Shown here piece after piece: positions 3,487 through 17,433 of a stretch of 64,000 nt of DNA. Position numbers and translations under genes: made by a program. This DNA comes from Planctomycetales bacterium 71-10 (lineage in GTDB: Bacteria; Planctomycetota; Planctomycetia; Isosphaerales; Isosphaeraceae). The DNA is taken from contig MKTT01000071.1 in NCBI GenBank assembly GCA_001898385.1, forward strand, positions 1 through 64,000. The letters run 5' to 3'. How positions within the stretch are numbered: position 1 is the stretch's first letter; every line of letters begins with the position of its first letter. The notes under the pieces are model-generated. The model had not been told where the DNA came from. It did not search any database and worked only from the letters and a program-made list of their open reading frames with translations.

Positions 3487-5412
3487 ATGAAGCGAACCTT
3501 CGCGGTCGTCGTCCTCCTCGCCGCGCTCGGGGTGATGGTCAAGCTGGCCTTCAAACCCGCCCCGCCCCCCGCGCGCCCCGACGACGGCCCCGCGACGGCC
3601 CAGGCCCCGGCCGCCCCCGTCGGCTCCGAGGAGGACGCGCTCGTCGCCCGCTATGCGGACGCCGCCCCCGAGGTCCGCGACCTCGTGGCCCGCTCGGTCG
3701 AGCGCTACCGCCGCAACGCCGTGGCCGTGGAGCGGTCCGACGGCCTCCGCGGGCTGAAGCTCCTGGACCGGCTGGACCTGGAGGCCCTGTTCCTCTACGA
3801 GAAACACCCCACCGAGTTCCGCACGCTCCGCGACCTGCTGGACGACGACGCCGCGGCCGACCTCCTGCTCCATTGGCGGGAATACTTCGGCCTGAAGCGG
3901 GCCGACGACACCGATCGCAAGATCCTCATCGCCGAGCTGGCGGGCCTGACCCCTTCGCAACGACGGCTGGCCGCGAAGCACCCCTCCGCGCTGCCGCTGA
4001 TCCTCGCGGAGCCCGCGGGCGTCGCCGAGCTGATGGCGACGAGCGACGGCGACGCGACGCTGGTCGACCGCCTGGTCCTCCTCAGCCTGGTCAGCCTGGA
4101 GCACGGCGCCGCGGACCTGCGCTCGGCGCTGCGGACGGTCGAGGCCCACCCGACGCTCGCCCTCGAAGCCTTCCGCCTGCACGGCATGGAGGGGTTCGCC
4201 CTGGTGTTCCTGTACGGCCCCGTGCTGGAGGCCCTGGGGACGGCGGCGCCGCTCGACGAGAGCCTCGTCCTGCTGCGGGTGAACGCCGGGTTCGTGGACG
4301 AGCAGCTCCAGACCCACCGGCCGGAGACGGTCGCGCGGCAGCTGGCGCACGTCAAGGCGGCCGACCTCGTCGCGCAGGCCGGCGGCAGCCCGAACGGCCT
4401 GCGGCTCTCGGTCGAGTTCGGCCCCCTGGGCGACCGCGCCCTGGCGAAGGGGGGGGCGGACGCCGCCGACGTGGTCTTCGACTCCTACACCGACCCCGCC
4501 CTCCGCCGCCAGGCCGCCGCGGCCATCGCCGAGCACGGCGCGATGGCCCTGGCCATGCTGGAGAAGTACGCCTCCGACCCCGACTTCCGCGACGTCCTCC
4601 GCTCCTACGGCCCTGGCGTCATCCCCCCCATCGCCCGCGCCGACGCCGGCCCGGAGAACCTGGCCCATCTCCAGGCCAAGGGCCAGACCTCCTGGAAGGA
4701 GAAGCTGGCGAAGGCCGCCCTCTACCTGACGGGCGACGACGGCCAGTCCGTGATCCGGACGATCCGGGCCGACGGCCTGGATCGGGTGGCGAGCCTCTCC
4801 GACGCCGACCTGCGCTTCTACCAGTTCCTCCCCCTCTACGACATGCTCCACCTGGGCGACGTCCTCCGCCGCGGCTACGCCCCGACCACCGGCGAGGCCG
4901 CCTGGGCCCTCCTGGACGCCTGCTTCGTCGTGACCGACGTCCTCAGCCTGGCCGCGCTCCAGCCCGGCGCGGCCGCCGCCGTCGAGGCCGCCCGCACCGA
5001 GATGAAGGCCACCGCCCGCGAGGCGTCGAAGGCGGGCCTCGAATCCGCCGCCAAGGCCGGCGCCCGCGAGTCCGCCGACGCCGCCCGCCAGGTCGCCCGC
5101 TGGTGGGCCGTCCGCTCGGCCGGCGGCGTCTACCAGGTCTTGAAGCGGACCCCGGAGGCCCTGGCCCGCATGACCCTCGGCCAGCTCGCCGAGGTCGCCC
5201 GCCCCCTCGCCGCGAAGGCCGGCCTCCGCCTCGCGAACTGGGCCCCCATCACCTTCCTGAAGGACGGCGCCGAGGTCGTCCTCAAGATCCCCCCCGGACG
5301 CGGCCTCAAGTACCTCGGCGCCCAGCTCGCCCAGGCGGGCGTCGGCGTCGTCGGCATGCACAAGATGGAAGAACACTTAAGCTCGAGAAGGCCGCAAAAT
5401 CAACAGCCGTAA
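3487..5412 (+). CDS. Large membrane-anchored protein of unknown function
   Basis: 641 residues starting MKRTFAVVVL; an upstream in-frame TTG at 3397 would add 30 residues of proline/histidine-rich sequence and was rejected. Residues about 3-20 form a hydrophobic N-terminal anchor followed by a proline/alanine linker. The rest is rich in alanine, leucine and arginine helices (for example LVARYADAAPEVRDLVARSV), suggesting an all-helical envelope protein. Residues about 545-590 form an Ala/Glu/Lys amphipathic helix. No catalytic motif recognised. It resembles long planctomycete-specific hypothetical proteins; that comparison is from memory. Confidence 0.7.
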   Translation: MKRTFAVVVLLAALGVMVKLAFKPAPPPARPDDGPATAQAPAAPVGSEEDALVARYADAAPEVRDLVARSVERYRRNAVAVERSDGLRGLKLLDRLDLEALFLYEKHPTEFRTLRDLLDDDAAADLLLHWREYFGLKRADDTDRKILIAELAGLTPSQRRLAAKHPSALPLILAEPAGVAELMATSDGDATLVDRLVLLSLVSLEHGAADLRSALRTVEAHPTLALEAFRLHGMEGFALVFLYGPVLEALGTAAPLDESLVLLRVNAGFVDEQLQTHRPETVARQLAHVKAADLVAQAGGSPNGLRLSVEFGPLGDRALAKGGADAADVVFDSYTDPALRRQAAAAIAEHGAMALAMLEKYASDPDFRDVLRSYGPGVIPPIARADAGPENLAHLQAKGQTSWKEKLAKAALYLTGDDGQSVIRTIRADGLDRVASLSDADLRFYQFLPLYDMLHLGDVLRRGYAPTTGEAAWALLDACFVVTDVLSLAALQPGAAAAVEAARTEMKATAREASKAGLESAAKAGARESADAARQVARWWAVRSAGGVYQVLKRTPEALARMTLGQLAEVARPLAAKAGLRLANWAPITFLKDGAEVVLKIPPGRGLKYLGAQLAQAGVGVVGMHKMEEHLSSRRPQNQQP

Positions 5413-5451
5413 CGATTTGCGGATTTCCATGGATCCCAGGAATCCCGTGAT

Positions 5452-5491
5452 TTTCCTGCATTCGCCGGGGATTTCCTGCAGATTTCCTGCA
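5452..5491. repeat. Three short direct repeats in a 3' intergenic stretch
   Basis: TTTCCTGCA occurs three times, at 5452-5460, 5472-5480 and 5483-5491, the last two as GATTTCCTGCA-type units. They follow the stop codon of the large envelope gene. Too few copies to call a repeat family; possible protein binding sites. Confidence 0.35.
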
Positions 5492-7457: not shown

Positions 7458-10163
7458 ATGGCGGACGACTTGCCTGTCGAGGATTCGACCCCGGCGTTTC
7501 CTGCTGAGGAAGCAGCCTCAGATACGCAGCAGCCAACGGCATCAGTCGAATCGGTCCCCATCCGCGACAAGGAGTACTGGCAGGCGCTCCAGGTGTATCC
7601 GGACAGCTTGGAGTTACCCGAAACGAAGGAAGGTTATAGCGAGCGAACCCAGAGGGTTCTCGTCCAGTTGAGTCTCGGCAACTTGCTCTACCTTTGCGGA
7701 AAACTAGGGGTGCCAGTTCGAGAGGACGAGCTGCTTCCTCAGCCAATTTCTCATAGGCTCGTCCAATCCGAGCACTCTCGCCTTCTGGCCTGTCTCGCGA
7801 CGTTCCTCAGTCAGAACGCGTCCGCAGTCAAGGAACACTTCGACAATCATTTCCCATCCCAGCTCGCCCAGAAGATCGAGGCAGAGATACACCACATTTC
7901 GAAAGGCCGAGCCCGGACGATTCTTCAATTCACTAAGCTCTTCGCCATCTACGTACGCAACCCTTCGGACCTTGAAACGATCAACTACCGTTACGTTTGG
8001 CGAAAGGCCGTCACCACTTGCGAGTATGCGATCGAAGGGGAGATCCCGAGCGATTTGCAAGAATCCCTGCAGGGAAAGCAAGAAGCTCTGATTCGATCAT
8101 TAGACTCTCTGAAGCCATCAGAAGATTACGCGTACCGAGGCCTCAGGACTGTGAACCAGGGGGTGGTTGCGATCCTCGTGCATCGCCGTTACCCCACCCG
8201 TGTTAAATCTGACTATCGAAGATGGTATCGACTTCAAAATGACTTTGGCCGCGTGGTATTTGGACTGGACGTCGAGAGTAAAAAGCTAATCCTCAAGACC
8301 CCGAACAAGGCCATCGGAACAGCGATTGTCGATTGGTTCAAGTCCGAGTTTGATGTTGTGTTGAAAGACACGAGCAAAACGCTCTACGAAGATTATGAGC
8401 CAGATTCTGTCTCCAAGAAATTGCTTGGGGACTACGATGAATCCACCGGAATCGACCTGCTGTCGCTCGACTTCAAATATTCGTCGCTGCCGACAGCTAG
8501 CGAGCTGATGCTCACCGCCGCCGAGCACAATCGGAGTATCCGGGAAGAACTCATCTGGCTGCGCGATCACGGCGTATTGAAGCTGTCCTCTCTCGCCGAT
8601 CTGAGATCGATCACGATCCGATTCGATGGTGCAACCATTCCCGTCGCAGTGGAGCCAGAACGCGGAGGGGCGGTGGTGCTCCGCATGAACGACGCGGGCA
8701 TAGACGAGGCACACAAAGAAGGAGCCAAAAGGGCCTTTTTGAAGGCGTTCGACATACCGCTGGACCAGCGGATCGACCCCACACGGATGATTATGGGGGC
8801 CACCGACGTCTATCACTATCTGTTGAGCGGCGTAGACGCGAGCCAGATCAGGAGCTACCAGCAGAAGCAGCTATCCGCTCTTCAGGCGCGGAACCTCATC
8901 AAAGAGGTCATGGTCGCGACCGGCAGATGCATAAACATCGGATGCGTCCGTAACAACCAAGCAATCAAAGGGAAGTCGGCGGCCAACTGCCCGTCGTGTG
9001 ACGCGCCGATCAAGTTCGATAGCCATCTTCGCTATGAGAGAAATGATAAGGAAGTACCTAAGTTCATAAAGAAAATCCTGCAGCTTGTGACCGACTGGAA
9101 ATTCACTGCGGAAAAGAACTTTGAAGGGGTCGCACTACACCAACTCAGTTCGCCAGATATTGCCAGCAAATCCATCTATGTATTCCTCAATACTCGATTC
9201 AGTTTAGTGAAGGTTGAAAAATTCCAGCGATCGATGTTCCCGATTCTTGTCGTCAACCCTTTGGGCGAACAGCGGGCACCGGCGATCGACGAGAGCGGCA
9301 TCGCACACCTCGGTCTACCCTGCATTCTGACGGCTTTGGAGGAGAAGCAATCGAGGAAAAGCTTCAAGAAATCCCTTCTGAGATATGTCAAAACACTGCT
9401 TCAGATGGAGCACGAACGGGTGGTGAAAGCGTCGAGGGTGTCGCGTGAGATCATCGAAAACAAGCCTGCAGGATATGATGGCGCTCAGTACGAAGCGGAG
9501 GTGTACAACATCCTACGCCGCCTTCTCCCATACTCATTCAAGCTGGGCGGCAATGACAAGCCGGACGGGTTCATCAGCTTTACCTGTTATGAAAAAAACG
9601 ATCTCAAGGCTCCGGTTAAATACAACTTTACCTACGACGCCAAGTACTCAGCTAGCTCGTACGACTTCGGAATCAAAGAACAGCGGCAGATGATCGATTA
9701 TATTAACACTTGGAGTGATAGCGATTGGATGAAGACTGAAGGCAACAAGCTGGATGGCCACATTATTATCACCAATAGCATGGAAAGAACCAGAATGCAG
9801 GGGGCCGCCGACTACTTGTGGGCTGAGCACCGCTTGGCAAGCGGTCACCCAGGAATGCTGATCGTTTTTATCAGGGAACAATTTCTGACCCATATATGGG
9901 ATGTTGTGCATGAAAATCTGCACGAAATATCCAAGCGATGGCTCCTGTTTACTCCAGCGTTGATGCGGATTATAGGGGAAAGCAAGCTGAACGGGTTTTC
10001 TCTGCTGGACAAACCGGAAGCGGAAATCATGATGCACCGGCTTCTTCACGGCCCAAAGGTCGAGGACCCGGTGAATCACGAGCTTCTGATGAATGATGTG
10101 GCAGCTCTGATCGGCATGAGGAAGCGTGCCCGCAAGCGTGTTGCTGACCCCAACTTGAACTGA
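7458..10163 (+). CDS. 901-residue protein: zinc-ribbon-like centre and FokI-like PD-(D/E)xK nuclease C-terminus
   Basis: Starts after a GAGGA ribosome site. Residues 1-480 match nothing I recognise and may be a sensor or DNA-recognition region. Residues 491-514 form a four-cysteine cluster (C491-x4-C496, C511-x2-C514) typical of a zinc ribbon. Residues about 675-760 form a restriction-endonuclease-like core: Glu in YEAEV (E679/E681), then GGNDKPDGFI (Asp703), then YDAKYS (Asp727, Lys729), then a helix with QRQMIDYI. The spacing and the words KPDG and D-x-K-x-YS strongly recall the FokI cleavage domain. Base composition is lower in GC than its neighbours, a sign of transfer. It stands alone beside a prophage, which is the usual setting of a single-gene antiphage nuclease. 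The nuclease call is well supported; the defence role is inference. Confidence 0.75.
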   Translation: MADDLPVEDSTPAFPAEEAASDTQQPTASVESVPIRDKEYWQALQVYPDSLELPETKEGYSERTQRVLVQLSLGNLLYLCGKLGVPVREDELLPQPISHRLVQSEHSRLLACLATFLSQNASAVKEHFDNHFPSQLAQKIEAEIHHISKGRARTILQFTKLFAIYVRNPSDLETINYRYVWRKAVTTCEYAIEGEIPSDLQESLQGKQEALIRSLDSLKPSEDYAYRGLRTVNQGVVAILVHRRYPTRVKSDYRRWYRLQNDFGRVVFGLDVESKKLILKTPNKAIGTAIVDWFKSEFDVVLKDTSKTLYEDYEPDSVSKKLLGDYDESTGIDLLSLDFKYSSLPTASELMLTAAEHNRSIREELIWLRDHGVLKLSSLADLRSITIRFDGATIPVAVEPERGGAVVLRMNDAGIDEAHKEGAKRAFLKAFDIPLDQRIDPTRMIMGATDVYHYLLSGVDASQIRSYQQKQLSALQARNLIKEVMVATGRCINIGCVRNNQAIKGKSAANCPSCDAPIKFDSHLRYERNDKEVPKFIKKILQLVTDWKFTAEKNFEGVALHQLSSPDIASKSIYVFLNTRFSLVKVEKFQRSMFPILVVNPLGEQRAPAIDESGIAHLGLPCILTALEEKQSRKSFKKSLLRYVKTLLQMEHERVVKASRVSREIIENKPAGYDGAQYEAEVYNILRRLLPYSFKLGGNDKPDGFISFTCYEKNDLKAPVKYNFTYDAKYSASSYDFGIKEQRQMIDYINTWSDSDWMKTEGNKLDGHIIITNSMERTRMQGAADYLWAEHRLASGHPGMLIVFIREQFLTHIWDVVHENLHEISKRWLLFTPALMRIIGESKLNGFSLLDKPEAEIMMHRLLHGPKVEDPVNHELLMNDVAALIGMRKRARKRVADPNLN

Positions 10164-10499: not shown

Positions 10500-11138
10500 T
10501 CACTGACAATCCCCCGCCCGCCGATACCCGGCCTTCTCGGCTTCTTCGGCCGACCCGAACTCCACCCGGTTCTTCTCGCTCATCCGGGCCGCTCCGCCGC
10601 AGTGGGGTGCGTGATACACCCTGCTGCTGCGGTTGCCGACCACCCCGGTCCCGGCGGGGACGCCCACGCCCTTCCGCCAGTCCCACGGCGGGATCGCTCC
10701 CGGTTGGCTCCAGAGGCCACGCTTCGCCGCCTTCGCCTGGGCCTCGAGCGAGGCCAGCGTCCGGTCGTTCGGAGCGTAGGCACGGTACCACCAGCAGCAG
10801 CCTTCGCGCGTGAGCTCCCGGTTCAGGCTCCGGCCGTCAGGCAGCGTAACCTCGGCCACGGTCCTGCCGTAGCGGTCCGTATCCACCGGCCTGATTGTCA
10901 CGGCCTTGCCGAAGGCCAGCTCGGACGCGGCCTGCTTCGCCCGCTGGCCGAAATCCTGGCCCGACTCCGGGGCGTCGATCCCGTGCAGGCGTATCTTCAC
11001 CTGCCTCTTCTCGGCGGTGAGCACGGTCAGGGTGTCGCCGTCCGAGACGCCGACGACTTTCGCGGGGTAGTCCGCGAAGCAGCCGGGAGCGGCGAAGATC
11101 AGCAGGAAGAGCAGGGGGATTCTGAGGGCGCCTTTCAT
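10500..11138 (-). CDS. Secreted thermonuclease-like protein with Ada-type metal-binding tail
   Basis: 212 residues starting MKGALRIP. A hydrophobic leader ends at AAPGC, a possible weak lipoprotein site. Residues about 25-140 are a staphylococcal-nuclease (SNase) domain: VVGVSDGDTLTVL, then RLHGIDAPE, with Arg50 and Glu58 at the catalytic positions, then DTDRYGRTVA. It should cut DNA or RNA with calcium, outside the cytoplasm. Residues about 165-212 (SRVYHAPHCG ... EEAEKAGYRRAGDC) resemble the small zinc site of Ada proteins. I chose the later ATG because it opens directly into the leader. Could serve nutrient scavenging or destroy incoming DNA. Confidence 0.8.
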   Translation of the reverse strand: MKGALRIPLLFLLIFAAPGCFADYPAKVVGVSDGDTLTVLTAEKRQVKIRLHGIDAPESGQDFGQRAKQAASELAFGKAVTIRPVDTDRYGRTVAEVTLPDGRSLNRELTREGCCWWYRAYAPNDRTLASLEAQAKAAKRGLWSQPGAIPPWDWRKGVGVPAGTGVVGNRSSRVYHAPHCGGAARMSEKNRVEFGSAEEAEKAGYRRAGDCQ

Positions 11139-11232
11139 ACCGCAAGAATGCGTCAGGACGGGGCTCATGTCCAGGTGTTCACGAAAAGCGACGATGTGAC
11201 TCTGGACGCGAGGGCCTGCGAGATCGACGGGA

Positions 11233-11649
11233 TCAGCCCAGCAGGTCCGCCAGCCGCTTGACCTTCTCCACGCCGAGGGCTTCGACCAGCGGCTTCATGG
11301 CCTCCAGGGCCTCGAGGACGTCCATCTCGCCGGCCCGCGAGGATTTGCGGGCCGGGGCCGTCTCGCCGCCGCGAGGCTTCCGCTCCGCCTTGCCACTCTT
11401 CTCGGCCCGCTTCTTCTCCATGGCCTTGTACGCGCTGATCATCTGCCGAGGGATGTCGATCCCGTAGTGCGACTTCACGAATCCCTCGATGTCTCCGAGG
11501 TCTTCCAGCCCTTCCCCCAGAGCGTTGCGGACGGCCTGGGCCTTGGAGATGGCGGGTGAGCCGTTCCCGTCGATAACGCCGCCTCCGGCGACCTCGGCCT
11601 CTTCGTGGATTTCAGGCTTCGTGTTCTTCTGCGCGCGCGAGCGGGCCAT
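11233..11649 (-). CDS. Hypothetical protein with putative helical DNA-binding region
   Basis: 138 residues starting MARSRAQKNT. Residues about 35-75 (KAQAVRNALGEGLEDLGDIE, then IDIPRQMISAYKA) look like a compact helical domain, followed by a lysine-rich linker and a C-terminal helix (LVEALGVEKVKRLADLL). I recall this arrangement from many planctomycete genomes, often in several copies, but its function is unknown. Confidence 0.6.
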   Translation of the reverse strand: MARSRAQKNTKPEIHEEAEVAGGGVIDGNGSPAISKAQAVRNALGEGLEDLGDIEGFVKSHYGIDIPRQMISAYKAMEKKRAEKSGKAERKPRGGETAPARKSSRAGEMDVLEALEAMKPLVEALGVEKVKRLADLLG

Positions 11650-11790
11650 GTCGTGGAGCTCCGGTATGAGGTATGGGATGGGAGGAGTATTCCATCCGCC
11701 GCCTAAGCCGGGCAATGGCATTTGTTTGCGCATCGACGCCGCGGGGCCCGGCCGGGTCGGCCGAATCGTCGCGACCCCGTCCGGCGGATT

Positions 11791-12039
11791 TCAGCCGGCC
11801 GATCTCATCGGGCTTTCGACAAGGCCCACCCGCACCCTGGCCGTCGCCCCTTCGACGAGCAGGAAGATGATCCCGGAGCCGCGTCTGGTCAGCAGCCGAA
11901 CCTCGGCGCCTTCCAGATAGCCGGGCTCGTCGATGGCGTCTTCCTGCACCCAGACGCTGTCGTCCGAGAGCTTGTAGACCCGGCCTCGCCCGTAGCCGCA
12001 GAACGTCCCGATCAACCGTCCGGTCCAGATCGTTTCCAT
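11791..12039 (-). CDS. Small protein, intact paralogue of the broken gene at 7.0-7.3 kb
   Basis: 82 residues with a strong GGAGGTG ribosome site. Conserved points shared with its broken copy are GTF, the (R/L)SD segment, DEPGY, LLT and GSG(I/M)I followed by a beta strand. Looks like a small beta-rich fold. No known family recognised. Confidence 0.6.
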   Translation of the reverse strand: METIWTGRLIGTFCGYGRGRVYKLSDDSVWVQEDAIDEPGYLEGAEVRLLTRRGSGIIFLLVEGATARVRVGLVESPMRSAG

Positions 12040-12148
12040 GCGTCACCTCCGAGTCGAACCCTACCCGCGCCCGGGACTCACGTCCTGCACGAAGCCCTCT
12101 TCCGACGCCTTGAACTTCCCGCCGATCGGCGCGTCCGGGAAACTCGCC

Positions 12149-12619
12149 TCAAATCTTCTGACCGATGAACACCGGCATCCGCTCCGACCCGGTCATGACG
12201 CGGTAATAGTGGCTGGCCGGCTCGCAGATCATGTAGGCGACCGCGCGGCCGTACTCGTCGGGCACGAGGATGCCCTTGATCCCCACCTCGATCGCGTACC
12301 AGACGCCCCGCCTCTCCAGGCCGAAGTTCGCCGGGATGTCGACGTACACGCCGCCCGAGCCAGCCCACCGTCCCGCCTCGATGCTCGACTTCCACGTCCA
12401 GCCGGTCCTGGGCAGCGTCAGGCTGCGGCGCGTGTGGTTGCCCCAGCGCGCGAGCCTCAGGACGCCGTCCCGGACGACGGGGAGCCGCGGCCGCGGCTCC
12501 CGGTAGAGGAAGCGGTATTCCGGCCTCCCGGCCCGGACGTAGAGCCGCTCGGCCAGATTGTGACGCCCGACCAGCTCCGTGGGCAGCTCGCTCCCTATCA
12601 GCGCGATTCCGAGGCACAC
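12149..12619 (-). CDS. SRAP-like (SOS response-associated peptidase-like) protein
   Basis: 156 residues if it starts at GTG 12619, which places cysteine at position 2 (M-C-L-G). SRAP/HMCES proteins use Cys2 to crosslink to abasic sites in single-stranded DNA. Later segments echo the family: RWGN, GVWYAIEVG, AYMICEPASHYY and the C-terminal SERMPVFIG, which resembles the usual RMPVIL. It is shorter than YedK (about 220 residues) and the match is by eye. It is transcribed divergently from a Y-family polymerase 74 bp away, a context that supports a DNA-damage role. Confidence 0.55.
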   Translation of the reverse strand: MCLGIALIGSELPTELVGRHNLAERLYVRAGRPEYRFLYREPRPRLPVVRDGVLRLARWGNHTRRSLTLPRTGWTWKSSIEAGRWAGSGGVYVDIPANFGLERRGVWYAIEVGIKGILVPDEYGRAVAYMICEPASHYYRVMTGSERMPVFIGQKI

Positions 12620-12693
12620 CGTCGATCCCGCCGCCCCCGATTCCGCCCGCTCCCGCCTTGTCGAAACCCCCGCGCCAAAGTATACGGGAGTCC

Positions 12694-13920
12694 ATGGGGA
12701 ACGCAAATCCAGTAGGCCACGTTGATGCGGATTGCTTCTACGTCTCCGCCGAGCGGGTGCGGTACGAGCACTTCCAGGGACTCCCCCTCGCGGTGATCGG
12801 CAACCAGGGGGCCTGCGTCATCGCGAAGTCGTATGAGATGAAGTCCGCGGGGGTGAAGACCGGCGAGCCGATCTGGGACGCGGTGAAGAAGTGCCCGGAC
12901 GGGGCTTACGTGAAGCGGGACTTCCGCTGGTACGAGGTGCTCTCGCGCCTGATGCTCGACGTGGTGAGGGAGTATTCGCCCCGGGTGGAGTACTACTCGA
13001 TCGACGAGTTCTTCTTCCAGCCGCATCTATCCAAGGGCCAGGACGAGCAGGCCTTCGCCGAGATGATCCGCGACCGGATATTCGAGAGGGTGAGGGTCCC
13101 GGCGACGGTGGGGATCGGGCGGACGAAGACGCTGGCGAAGCTGATCTCGGACACGGCCAAGCCGTTCGGGGCGCGTGCGGTGCTGGGGCGGGAGGCGGAG
13201 GAGGCGCTGCTGGCCGCGACCCCCGTCACCGAGGTCTCGGGGATCGCGGGCAGGAGGGCCGCCCGGCTCTCTCCCTGGGGCGTCTCGACGTGCCTGGATT
13301 TCGCCCGGATGGACCGCCGCATCGCCCGCCAGCTGCTGACCGCCTCGGGCGAGGCCCTGTGGTGGGAGCTGAACGGCGACCCGGTCCTGCCCATCCACAC
13401 CAGCCGCATCCCGCACAAGATGCTCTCGCGCGGCGGCAGCTTCGGCGAGGCGACCGAGGATCCCGGCACGCTCTGGGCGTGGCTGGTGCGGAACCTGGAG
13501 CGGCTGATCGAGGAGCTGTCCTTCCACGGCGTCGTGACCGGCCGCGTCGTGGTCTGGGTGGGGTACAAGAACGGGCGGGCCGGGGAGGGCAGGGCGAGCC
13601 TCCCGGAGCCCGCCGACCAGTTCGACGTCTTGCTGGAAGCCCTGAGGCCGTGCCTGCGCCAGGCTTACATCCCCGGCACCCCGGCGGGCCGGATGCACTT
13701 ATTTGCGGACGACCTCCGGCCCAAGGGCGAGCGGCAACTGACGCTGTTCGAGGGCGCGTCGGAGCGGGTGAAGACGGTATCGGCCCTGAAGAAGGCCGTG
13801 AACGAGAAGCACGGGCGGTTCGCGGTGAGGAGTGGTGCCACTTTGCCGCTGGCGGAGATCTACGCGGACGGGGCCCACTCTTACGACATCTGCGACGTGC
13901 GGGGGAAGACGTGCTTCTGA
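12694..13920 (+). CDS. Y-family translesion DNA polymerase (UmuC/DinB type)
   Basis: 408 residues starting MGNANPVG after a GGGAG site. The catalytic palm carries HVDADCFYVSAE (first Asp) and YYSIDEFFF (Asp-Glu pair). GIGRTKTLAKL and the helix-hairpin-helix EVSGIAGRRAA follow, then the little-finger region with LSRGGSFGEATED. The C-terminus has KGERQLTLFE, resembling a beta-clamp binding motif (QLTLF). All catalytic acids are intact. It inserts bases opposite lesions. Such genes are common on plasmids and phages; no recognisable LexA box was found in the divergent promoter. Confidence 0.92.
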   Translation: MGNANPVGHVDADCFYVSAERVRYEHFQGLPLAVIGNQGACVIAKSYEMKSAGVKTGEPIWDAVKKCPDGAYVKRDFRWYEVLSRLMLDVVREYSPRVEYYSIDEFFFQPHLSKGQDEQAFAEMIRDRIFERVRVPATVGIGRTKTLAKLISDTAKPFGARAVLGREAEEALLAATPVTEVSGIAGRRAARLSPWGVSTCLDFARMDRRIARQLLTASGEALWWELNGDPVLPIHTSRIPHKMLSRGGSFGEATEDPGTLWAWLVRNLERLIEELSFHGVVTGRVVVWVGYKNGRAGEGRASLPEPADQFDVLLEALRPCLRQAYIPGTPAGRMHLFADDLRPKGERQLTLFEGASERVKTVSALKKAVNEKHGRFAVRSGATLPLAEIYADGAHSYDICDVRGKTCF

Positions 13921-14022
13921 GGTGTTGCGTTTTTCGTTCCCCGATTAGGGTTCGCTCGTTACTCTATCACTTTGCAATGGTGACCTGCGAGTGATCGAAT
14001 CCGACTACGGGGAGTCGACGAG

Positions 14023-15701: not shown

Positions 15702-15893
15702 CTATCCTTCCCACTCCGGGACTGCATCGCGGATCAGCAGCGCGTCCGCCCGGCTGATCTTCAGCTTCCCGTTGAGCTTCCGCCAGACGGTGCTGTGGTC
15801 CCAGCCGGTCCGGCGGGCGAGCTCGGTCTGGCCGCCCCGGCCGTGTTCGTCGTTCAGGGAGGCGACGATGCGCTCGAGATCCTTGCGGTTCAC
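15702..15893 (-). CDS. Small HTH regulator
   Basis: 63 residues starting from GTG, whose GTGA overlaps the stop of the nucleotidyltransferase gene. Residues about 19-50 (GGQTELARRTGWDHSTVWRK) form a helix-turn-helix of Fis/XRE type, followed by LNGKLKISRADALLI as in Cro-like proteins. Translation is probably coupled to the upstream enzyme gene. Likely regulates its own operon. Confidence 0.65.
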   Translation of the reverse strand: MNRKDLERIVASLNDEHGRGGQTELARRTGWDHSTVWRKLNGKLKISRADALLIRDAVPEWEG

Positions 15894-16888
15894 GCCGCGG
15901 CCCCCAATACCCTCGTCCGGTAGACCGAGGCGACGAACTCCTCGGCGAATGCACGGTCCGGCTCGGCGGGGAGCGTAGACGCGGCCTGACATTCTTCCAG
16001 GCGGTCCATGCCCGCTTCGAGCAGTTCGGCGACCTCTCGGTAGGGCAGCTCGCCCTTGCGGATTCTGAGGAGCAACTCCGCCTCGGGCCGGGGATAGCTG
16101 ATCGTGTGGGTGAGGAGGAGCTCTTCGGCTTCCCGGCAGACTCGGAGGGCGTGCATCATGGCCTTCCAGTCCACGCCCTCGTTCTTTTCCGCGAGCAAAG
16201 CCCGCTGGCCGTACTCGTCGACCAGGTGCTTGTATATCTTGTAGGCCTCCTTGGCGGTGACGTGCTCCTGGACCTTGCGGTTGCAGACGTCGAGCATCCT
16301 GACGATCAATTCCGGGCGGCCGCGCAGGTTTCCTTCCAGGATCTGCATGTGCTGGTAGCGGGGATCGGCTGCGAGGGCCTCGATACGGTCCCAGGCTTCA
16401 CGGATCTTGAAGCCCGTGCCGTGCTCGGCCATCAGGGCCTCGAAGAACTCCATCGCCGCACGAGAAGCAGCCACTCGGCTTCCCTTCACGCCGTATTTGT
16501 TGGCCTGCTGCCGACAGTATCCCGCGAAGGCGGAAACTCCCCTGTGCAGCCAGCGATCCTTGTGCTCGCGGATCGCCTCCCACGTCCCGCTCGGCTCCCG
16601 CACCCAGCGGTCGGGGACGAAGAGCATGGTCAATGCCACCGTCTGCCCTTCCAGGAGCAGCTTGAAATACTGCTGGAGGGAGAAGGACTCGAAGTCCACG
16701 TCGTCGGGCCCGTTCTTCTTCGTCGCGTCGGACTTGGATTTCACGTTGATCGTGTTCCTCGGCCGTTGGAGCAGTATGTCGCGGCCTTCGGGCAGATGGA
16801 CGCCCTTGAAGTCGAGGTCGCTCGTCGGAAGGTTCGTCCCGTAGACGTGGCTGCCGAACTGCATTTTCACCAAGGCCGTTTCCATCAT
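15890..16888 (-). CDS. Predicted nucleotidyltransferase, DNA polymerase beta superfamily (COG3541-like)
   Basis: 332 residues. The N-terminal motif GSHVYGTNLPTSDLDFKGV (residues 12-30) is the nucleotidyltransferase signature, with Asp24 and Asp26 as metal ligands. This branch is often called the RNA-repair-pathway polymerase beta family, and phages often carry it. Residues about 75-330 are helical. Substrate unknown. The start overlaps the phosphoesterase stop (ATGA) and its stop overlaps the HTH start, so the three genes form one tightly coupled operon. Confidence 0.8.
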   Translation of the reverse strand: MMETALVKMQFGSHVYGTNLPTSDLDFKGVHLPEGRDILLQRPRNTINVKSKSDATKKNGPDDVDFESFSLQQYFKLLLEGQTVALTMLFVPDRWVREPSGTWEAIREHKDRWLHRGVSAFAGYCRQQANKYGVKGSRVAASRAAMEFFEALMAEHGTGFKIREAWDRIEALAADPRYQHMQILEGNLRGRPELIVRMLDVCNRKVQEHVTAKEAYKIYKHLVDEYGQRALLAEKNEGVDWKAMMHALRVCREAEELLLTHTISYPRPEAELLLRIRKGELPYREVAELLEAGMDRLEECQAASTLPAEPDRAFAEEFVASVYRTRVLGAAA

Positions 16889-17433
16889 TTCGCCTCCTTG
16901 CGCTTTTCAAGAATCCAGTCGAACGTCACCGGCGTCAGGTCCACCTGCTCGGCGGAGACGCAGACGTAACGCCAATCGGGCACGCCCTCCATGATCGTGC
17001 CGTCCAATTGAAGCGTCGGAGGACGCATCGCACGCTTGGTGTGCAGGTGACCGTGGACGTTGAACGCCCACCTCTCCATCTGCGATTCATGGATCGGCAC
17101 GTGCGTCAGGACCGCCCCCTTGAACTCGACCGCACCGGACAGCCTCGTGAAGTACCTCAGGTAGTCGGCGGACGTGTACATGTCGTGGTTGCCCATGACC
17201 AACTTCTTGTTGCCGTTCAGGAGGGCGGCGATCTCCAGGTTCCTCTTGCCGAAGCAGAAGTCGCCGAGATGCCAGACAACGTCCTTCGGGCCGACCACGC
17301 TGTTCCAGCGGCGCACCAGTCCCTCGTCGTGCTCCTCTATCGAGGGGAACGATCGAAACGGCCTGGTCTCATCGAATTCGATGATCCGGCGGTGTCCGAA
17401 GTGGGTGTCGGCGATGAAGAAGATTTCACTCAT
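16885..17433 (-). CDS. Calcineurin-like metallophosphoesterase
   Basis: 182 residues. All metal-binding motifs are present: ADTHFGH (Asp9, His11), WHLGDF, MGNHDMY, LTHVPIH and VHGHLH. Such small single-domain enzymes hydrolyse phosphodiesters or phosphomonoesters. Being the first gene of an operon with a nucleotidyltransferase suggests an end-processing or nucleotide-removal step paired with nucleotide addition. That pairing is inference. Confidence 0.88.
   Translation of the reverse strand: MSEIFFIADTHFGHRRIIEFDETRPFRSFPSIEEHDEGLVRRWNSVVGPKDVVWHLGDFCFGKRNLEIAALLNGNKKLVMGNHDMYTSADYLRYFTRLSGAVEFKGAVLTHVPIHESQMERWAFNVHGHLHTKRAMRPPTLQLDGTIMEGVPDWRYVCVSAEQVDLTPVTFDWILEKRKEAK

Follow-up and report, generated by a model that had tools for sequence, protein, structure and literature searches.

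The window analysed here is a stretch of 64,000 nucleotides, positions 1 to 64,000 of contig MKTT01000071.1 (assembly GCA_001898385.1) from Planctomycetales bacterium 71-10. Within it, the reading frame of a 156-residue protein and that of a Y-family DNA polymerase lie in divergent orientation (Table 1), just as the first-pass annotation had described a protein with Cys at position 2 standing back to back with a translesion polymerase. The smaller protein begins VCLGIAL. A search for sigma-70-type or terminator-type consensus sites across positions 12560-12760 found none.

Table 1. Features of the locus, in window coordinates
Feature	Position	Strand	Remarks
SRAP-like polymerase partner gene	12149..12619	-	156 aa, GTG start, stop codon included; ORF
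Cys2 codon	12614..12616	-	would be N-terminal after loss of Met1; Cys in 49/62 clusters
Gap separating both start codons	12620..12693	.	74 bp
Y-family DNA polymerase	12694..13920	+	408 aa; Pfam IMS/IMS_C, phrog_1268, DADCFY and SIDE
QLTLF, beta-clamp-binding-type motif	13735..13749	+	residues 348-352; named after the published QxxLF consensus (PMC12926913)
Conserved segment, residues 366-386	13789..13851	+	located where the published RecA-NT-like motif would fall
Conserved C-terminal tail ending YDICDVRGKTCF	13861..13917	+	conservation; candidate partner docking site by UmuC analogy

Comparison of the smaller reading frame with two copies in Paludisphaera soli, L005 (dN 0.060, dS 0.303) and L006 (dN 0.124, dS 0.516), gives a dN/dS of about 0.2; it is a real gene under purifying selection. 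The first aligned position is Met in 46 of 62 family clusters and Val in 10 more (GTG-coded where listed), which makes the start codon, and hence Cys2, credible. A different start that would take Cys2 away, named beforehand as evidence against the annotation, is at odds with these counts.

Matches to baseplate, sheath, tape measure, portal, terminase, endolysin and ParB-like proteins, located between about 18 and 62 kb, reveal a contractile-tail prophage in the window. The pair sits either beside this prophage or inside it, and for the window copy the phage genes bear out the description "mobile-looking". The prophage genes between 18000 and 62000 also include a tail fibre gene and a DNA methyltransferase gene. 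Positions 10505-13922 are common to Paludisphaera soli at 86% DNA identity. Elsewhere, in L168, a divergently arranged copy from another genome has neighbours whose N-termini, judged by eye, do not suggest that it is phage-borne. In the L006 copy (3711-5462, Paludisphaera soli), Cys2 is replaced by Tyr and the polymerase frame is broken near residue 26-29.

Searches of Pfam, NCBIfam and PHROGs with the 156-residue protein, to E values of 1, gave no match. Profile searches covered the window's phylum and capped the candidates scored in each genome, which makes absences approximate. A 12-row profile found the family in 9 genomes of a phylum-wide sample of 294, every one from the window's class; 39 of 59 relatives have it, and a 16-row profile found it in 95 of the 297 class genomes. 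Named relatives occupy two loci in Paludisphaera soli, an Isosphaeraceae planctomycete whose contigs recur as a genome of the window's genus (G297), and four loci in metagenome-assembled records. Distant homologues occur on Methylophaga, Pseudomonas and Nitrosomonas plasmids, a branch that matches the family profile with a probability of 99%. The window's own genome holds a second copy, 63% identical, on contig C68, where it follows the terminal part of a polymerase gene; contig C100 carries a further piece that probably comes from that polymerase gene. Three records titled Candidatus Kuenenia (L007, L008, L010) and one titled "bacterium" (L009) have match places identical to those in genomes of the window's own family (G438, G329 and G320; G303), and the Kuenenia titles therefore look doubtful.

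From 110 full-length sequences, the window's included, two (L092, L115) were dropped and the remaining 108 formed 62 clusters at 80% identity; L026, L029, L038 and L062 are second fetches of L008, L010, L009 and L007, respectively, and leave cluster counts unaffected. Residues E34, F37, W59, W107 and P149 are constant in all 62 clusters, and Y138, M142 and T143 are conserved in 60. When the 62 representatives were compared with Pfam at E values up to 10, ten families appeared, each with one or two members and a best E of 0.002; NCBIfam returned two single matches (0.097 and 0.2). By these comparisons the protein belongs to an unclassified family, one that no model of Pfam, NCBIfam or PHROGs describes. 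Viral contigs scanned with the window protein, A2 and L011 yielded no relative, and a single candidate from a scan with L002 (L025) was discarded because stops surround the matching peptide, which makes it a chance similarity. In the phages collection no match appeared for the 156-residue protein or two of its homologues, nor for the window polymerase at E 1e-30.

The co-occurrence survey that the first-pass annotation had proposed ties the protein firmly to the translesion polymerase. With the window polymerase as query and a cutoff of E <= 1e-60, 89 of the 297 class genomes were positive; 88 genomes have both proteins, 7 the small protein only, 1 the polymerase only, and 201 neither (Fisher 8e-66, a value that ignores shared ancestry). 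Among the protein-only genomes, three (G438, G448, G357) have a polymerase fragment adjoining the gene, and two (G410, G358) have no polymerase in the fetched stretch. The sole polymerase-only genome, G337, gives a partial match.

Gene order repeats the pattern. Among 109 full-length loci (window excluded, the four second fetches included), 87 have the polymerase no more than about 0.4 kb upstream and in the same orientation, some of them only as fragments at contig ends; 10 are divergent as in the window, and 12 lack a polymerase in the fetched flank. Overlaps of 1 to 4 bp, measured from alignment ends, join the two genes in 19 of the 87 co-directional loci (for example TGATG in L016). Both genes are kept even where they lie apart, by about 64 kb in G306, 52 kb in G323 and 3 kb in G314, and on different contigs in G299 and G474. 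Distance matrices of the two proteins correlate with r = 0.78 over 49 pairs, against a maximum of 0.244 in 1000 permutations, a correlation that need not mean contact because linked genes are co-inherited. The family is a near-obligate partner of one Y-polymerase clade, and because the protein travels with the polymerase in so many planctomycetes, it is probably that polymerase's dedicated helper. The outlying plasmid branch is linked to Y-polymerases loosely: of the five plasmids that carry a distant homologue, only that of Methylophaga thalassica has a Y-polymerase next to it. Two others match a Y-polymerase at some other place, and the remaining two lack one. On the Pseudomonas and Nitrosomonas plasmids L011, L012 and L013, the homologue adjoins toxin-antitoxin-type genes, and no Y-polymerase is annotated within about 6 kb.

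The polymerase gene is intact, and its product is assigned to the Y family by its domains and motifs, with Pfam matches to IMS (1.2e-35) and IMS_C (6e-13), a PHROGs match to phrog_1268 (5.5e-68), and DADCFY (DxD) and SIDE (SxDE) motifs. Conservation of its C-terminal region was read from 53 related polymerases, 49 adjacent to the partner gene and four apart from it. In the clamp-type motif QLTLF, L351 is kept in 51 of the 53 and F352 in all. The segment at residues 366-386, K-x3-N-x3-GRF-x2-RS-x2-TL, is strongly conserved; set against the N-terminus of the genome's own RecA it falls in the expected register with a weak score of 7.3, where other polymerase segments reach up to 26.5 and the rest of RecA 5.0. 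The tail, YDICDxxGKxCF, has C400, D401, K405, C407 and F408 in 53 of 53 sequences, and is absent from the own genome's other Y-family polymerase (contig C83) and from the Methylophaga polymerase. Of the traits of a Pol V-type mutasome, a clamp-type motif, a conserved tail and a co-encoded small gene are observed; the RecA-NT comparison is weak, and an assignment to that type is tentative. The conserved tail of UmuC is described as the primary UmuD'-binding site (PMC6511836), and by analogy the tail seen here may suggest where the partner binds. Because the tail of YqjW was modelled without contact to YqjX (PMC12926913) despite the UmuC precedent, docking on the tail is a placement we infer only.

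The first-pass annotation had also read "SRAP-like later motifs" in the small protein. The RMP motif is indeed present, near the C-terminus, whereas no SRAP model was returned and profile significance is confined to the RMPV block. PF02586 was listed for none of the 62 representatives in a Pfam search to E = 10, in which filters drop most matches above about 0.1, and the own genome has no PF02586 match. For comparison we used 30 planctomycete SRAPs picked by an MCG[RK]-type start, so that their Cys2 (30 of 30) is given by construction; they are typical rather than diverse because they were taken from best-scoring loci. Cys2 is present in the window protein and in 49 of the 62 clusters, and absent in 13. 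The NARxE motif (YedK N75) occurs in no cluster, versus 27 of 30 canonical SRAPs; the Glu of the GFYEW-type motif (YedK E105) likewise in none, versus 28 of 30; and HxRMP (YedK H160) in 6 of 62, versus 29 of 30, the window protein having Ser. On these alignments the SRAP catalytic signature is not kept by the family. Position 102 is acidic in 46 of 62 clusters (33 E, 13 D; E in the window protein), and may be a counterpart of YedK Glu105, where an E105D change is reported to cause modest impairment only (PMC9436759). Cys2 and the acidic residue occur together in 38 clusters, Cys2 alone in 11, the acid alone in 8 and neither in 5. A full-length polymerase adjoins 9 of the 13 Cys2-less clusters versus 40 of the 49 with Cys2, and the pair thus survives without the crosslinking residue.

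Profile comparison of the family with the 30 SRAPs by hhalign gave a score of 28.8 and a probability of about 22%, in the RMPV block only; that score was reached by none of 120 full column shuffles, by 12 of 120 with both ends held, and by 24 of 120 ten-column block shuffles. In global mode against full-length SRAP columns, hhalign scored -0.7, under the shuffle mean of 2.9, and a separate global profile alignment gave z values of 4.5 against full shuffles and 1.0 to 1.5 with ends held. With the latter aligner, 18, 9 and 16 of 150 shuffles of the middle of the profile, ends held, reached the observed score. In a forced full-length alignment the N-terminal MC and the C-terminal RMPV coincide with the SRAP ends, and homologues from Methylophaga thalassica and a Pseudomonas plasmid keep an MCG start and IHxRWP; the plasmid branch matched the SRAP profile with a probability of about 1%. 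The MC start and RMPV end are no more than suggestive of SRAP kinship. AlphaFold2 models from seven sequences, with the window protein or L009 first, had pLDDT 40.2 and 46.9 and were both unusable as a structural comparison. Two profile searches of solved structures returned beta-lactamase inhibitory protein II (best E 0.015 and 9e-05), rejected as a sum of weak WG-repeat matches.

Canonical SRAP genes occur in many of the same genomes, being present in 54 of the 95 that bear the 156-residue family. Within the window's own family, 45 sampled genomes include 41 with the small protein and 9 with SRAP; outside it, the protein is found in 54 of 252 genomes, and 45 of those 54 have SRAP also. Replacement of SRAP by the small protein could therefore apply to the own family at most. 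Of 36 wide loci, 6, from six genomes, have a canonical SRAP adjoining the protein or no more than about 2 kb away, a proportion that gives no frequency because five of the loci were chosen for SRAP proximity already seen. In L160, L161 and L164 the order on one strand is polymerase, small protein, canonical SRAP; since the canonical SRAP follows, the small protein there is a further component and not the cassette's SRAP. SRAP is the sole recurrent neighbour recognised as repair-related in the 14-kb surroundings. Further ORF groups recur, every one of them at 6 to 10 loci; the members of one have a prepilin-type N-terminus, and some groups are probably antisense ORFs.

A link of this general kind has already been reported: an UmuC-like polymerase is tied to an SRAP-related group of putative PolY-binding regulatory subunits (PMC12926913, NAR 2026), a group that may or may not be the family described here. 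SRAP genes beside UmuC, DinB and LexA were described in 2013 (PMC3765255), and among the literature titles and abstract openings searched, none describes a planctomycete pair of this protein and a Y-polymerase. Canonical SRAP (YedK, HMCES; PF02586) resembles the family in its N-terminal MC, near-terminal RMP and reported association with translesion polymerases (PMC3765255), but differs in length (a median of about 155 residues in the family against 225), in matching PF02586, and in having NARxE and HxRMP, where the family lacks the first and mostly lacks the second; Cys2 is not constant in the family. The earlier characterisation of the protein as shorter and more divergent than known SRAPs, with Cys2, agrees with these figures. 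Pol V-type systems share a polymerase with a clamp-type motif, a conserved C-terminal tail and a small partner gene; the partner here, by contrast, matches no Pfam family, S24 peptidase included, and the window polymerase has IMS and IMS_C as its only Pfam domains and YDICDxxGKxCF as its tail. YqjW/UvrX with YqjX/YolD likewise joins an UmuC-like polymerase to a co-encoded small protein, a proposed UmuD analogue, and those polymerases are described as having conserved tails beside YolD-type partners, with UvrX in an integrated prophage (PMC6511836), but the 156-residue protein has no YolD match in Pfam or NCBIfam.

Bypass polymerases are mutagenic, and several are held in check by small partner subunits. 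To our knowledge few families of such subunits are known. The family described here, for which the databases offer no model, is found in 95 of the 297 genomes sampled from one planctomycete class, and its inheritance is nearly confined to lineages with one polymerase clade. The reading we favour, at a probability of roughly 60%, is a two-gene translesion module, an active Y-family polymerase with a dedicated small subunit that would be distantly, but not provably, SRAP-like. The 156-residue protein would then probably be an accessory subunit of a Pol V-like bypass complex, and possibly a worn-down SRAP relative. It would bind the polymerase, plausibly at the near-invariant C-terminal tail in the way UmuD' binds the tail of UmuC, and, with the clamp and perhaps RecA, would control the enzyme or position it at a lesion. 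Its N-terminal Cys, kept in most clusters, may contact the template or an abasic site. The pairing, the linkage, the conservation and the polymerase's motifs and tail are observed, whereas binding, its site, a role at lesions and descent from SRAP are inferred.

The first-pass annotation had gone further and paired abasic-site shielding with lesion bypass. Read in that way, the protein would be a true miniature SRAP whose Cys2, once Met1 is removed, crosslinks to and shields abasic sites in single-stranded DNA, with the polymerase bypassing other lesions. Cys2 in most clusters, the acidic position 102, the coincidence of MC and RMPV with the SRAP ends, the MCG and IHxRWP of the two plasmid homologues, and the 36 of 45 own-family genomes with no canonical SRAP match all lend it something, but we consider it unlikely: E105 and H160 are reported to drive YedK chemistry (PMC9436759), NARxE is found in none of the clusters and HxRMP in few, nine Cys2-less clusters retain a full-length polymerase, loss of Cys2 does not go along with loss of the acidic residue, and canonical SRAP is present in more than half of the bearer genomes, lying close by in some (mostly preselected) loci. 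SRAP-type shielding is thus unsupported, covalent shielding not being what conservation in the family points to, although abasic-site crosslinking itself is possible. A variant in which the N-terminal Cys of the small subunit reaches into the active site of the polymerase and there binds an abasic site reversibly, the subunit acting in Cys2-less lineages as a purely structural manager, is quite improbable; if true, it would make shielding and bypass a single, handed-over reaction.

That the protein has an unrelated fold, regulates the polymerase gene or its activity, for instance as a brake on mutagenesis, and resembles SRAP by chance, is also unlikely. The failure of every family model to match would suit it, as would a profile middle that aligns with SRAP no better than shuffles do, but the constant residues and the frequent gene overlap would better suit a stoichiometric partner, and no convincing operator emerged: upstream of 48 polymerases there was no convincing shared palindrome of the LexA-box kind, the commonest occurring in 5 of the 48 regions versus at most 4 in ten simple shuffles. 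A hitch-hiking or decaying gene without function would account for the fragments and stop-bearing copies in some genomes (G357, G477 and G343 among them), but is scarcely credible for a gene with a dN/dS of about 0.2 that is kept with its polymerase even where the two lie apart. Because natural variants with and without Cys2 adjoin full-length polymerases, the choice between crosslinking and binding by SRAP-like partners is directly testable.

Three further stretches flank the pair in the window. A 901-residue ORF with no credible Pfam match (7458-10163, plus strand) lies in a stretch of lower G+C. A staphylococcal-type nuclease is encoded at 10500-11168 (minus strand), where an Ada metal-binding domain match at the end falls just under the cutoff. 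At 15890-17433 (minus strand), genes for an RlaP-type nucleotidyltransferase (phrog_388) and a phosphoesterase (phrog_547) overlap by 4 bp and may form a phage nucleic-acid repair pair.
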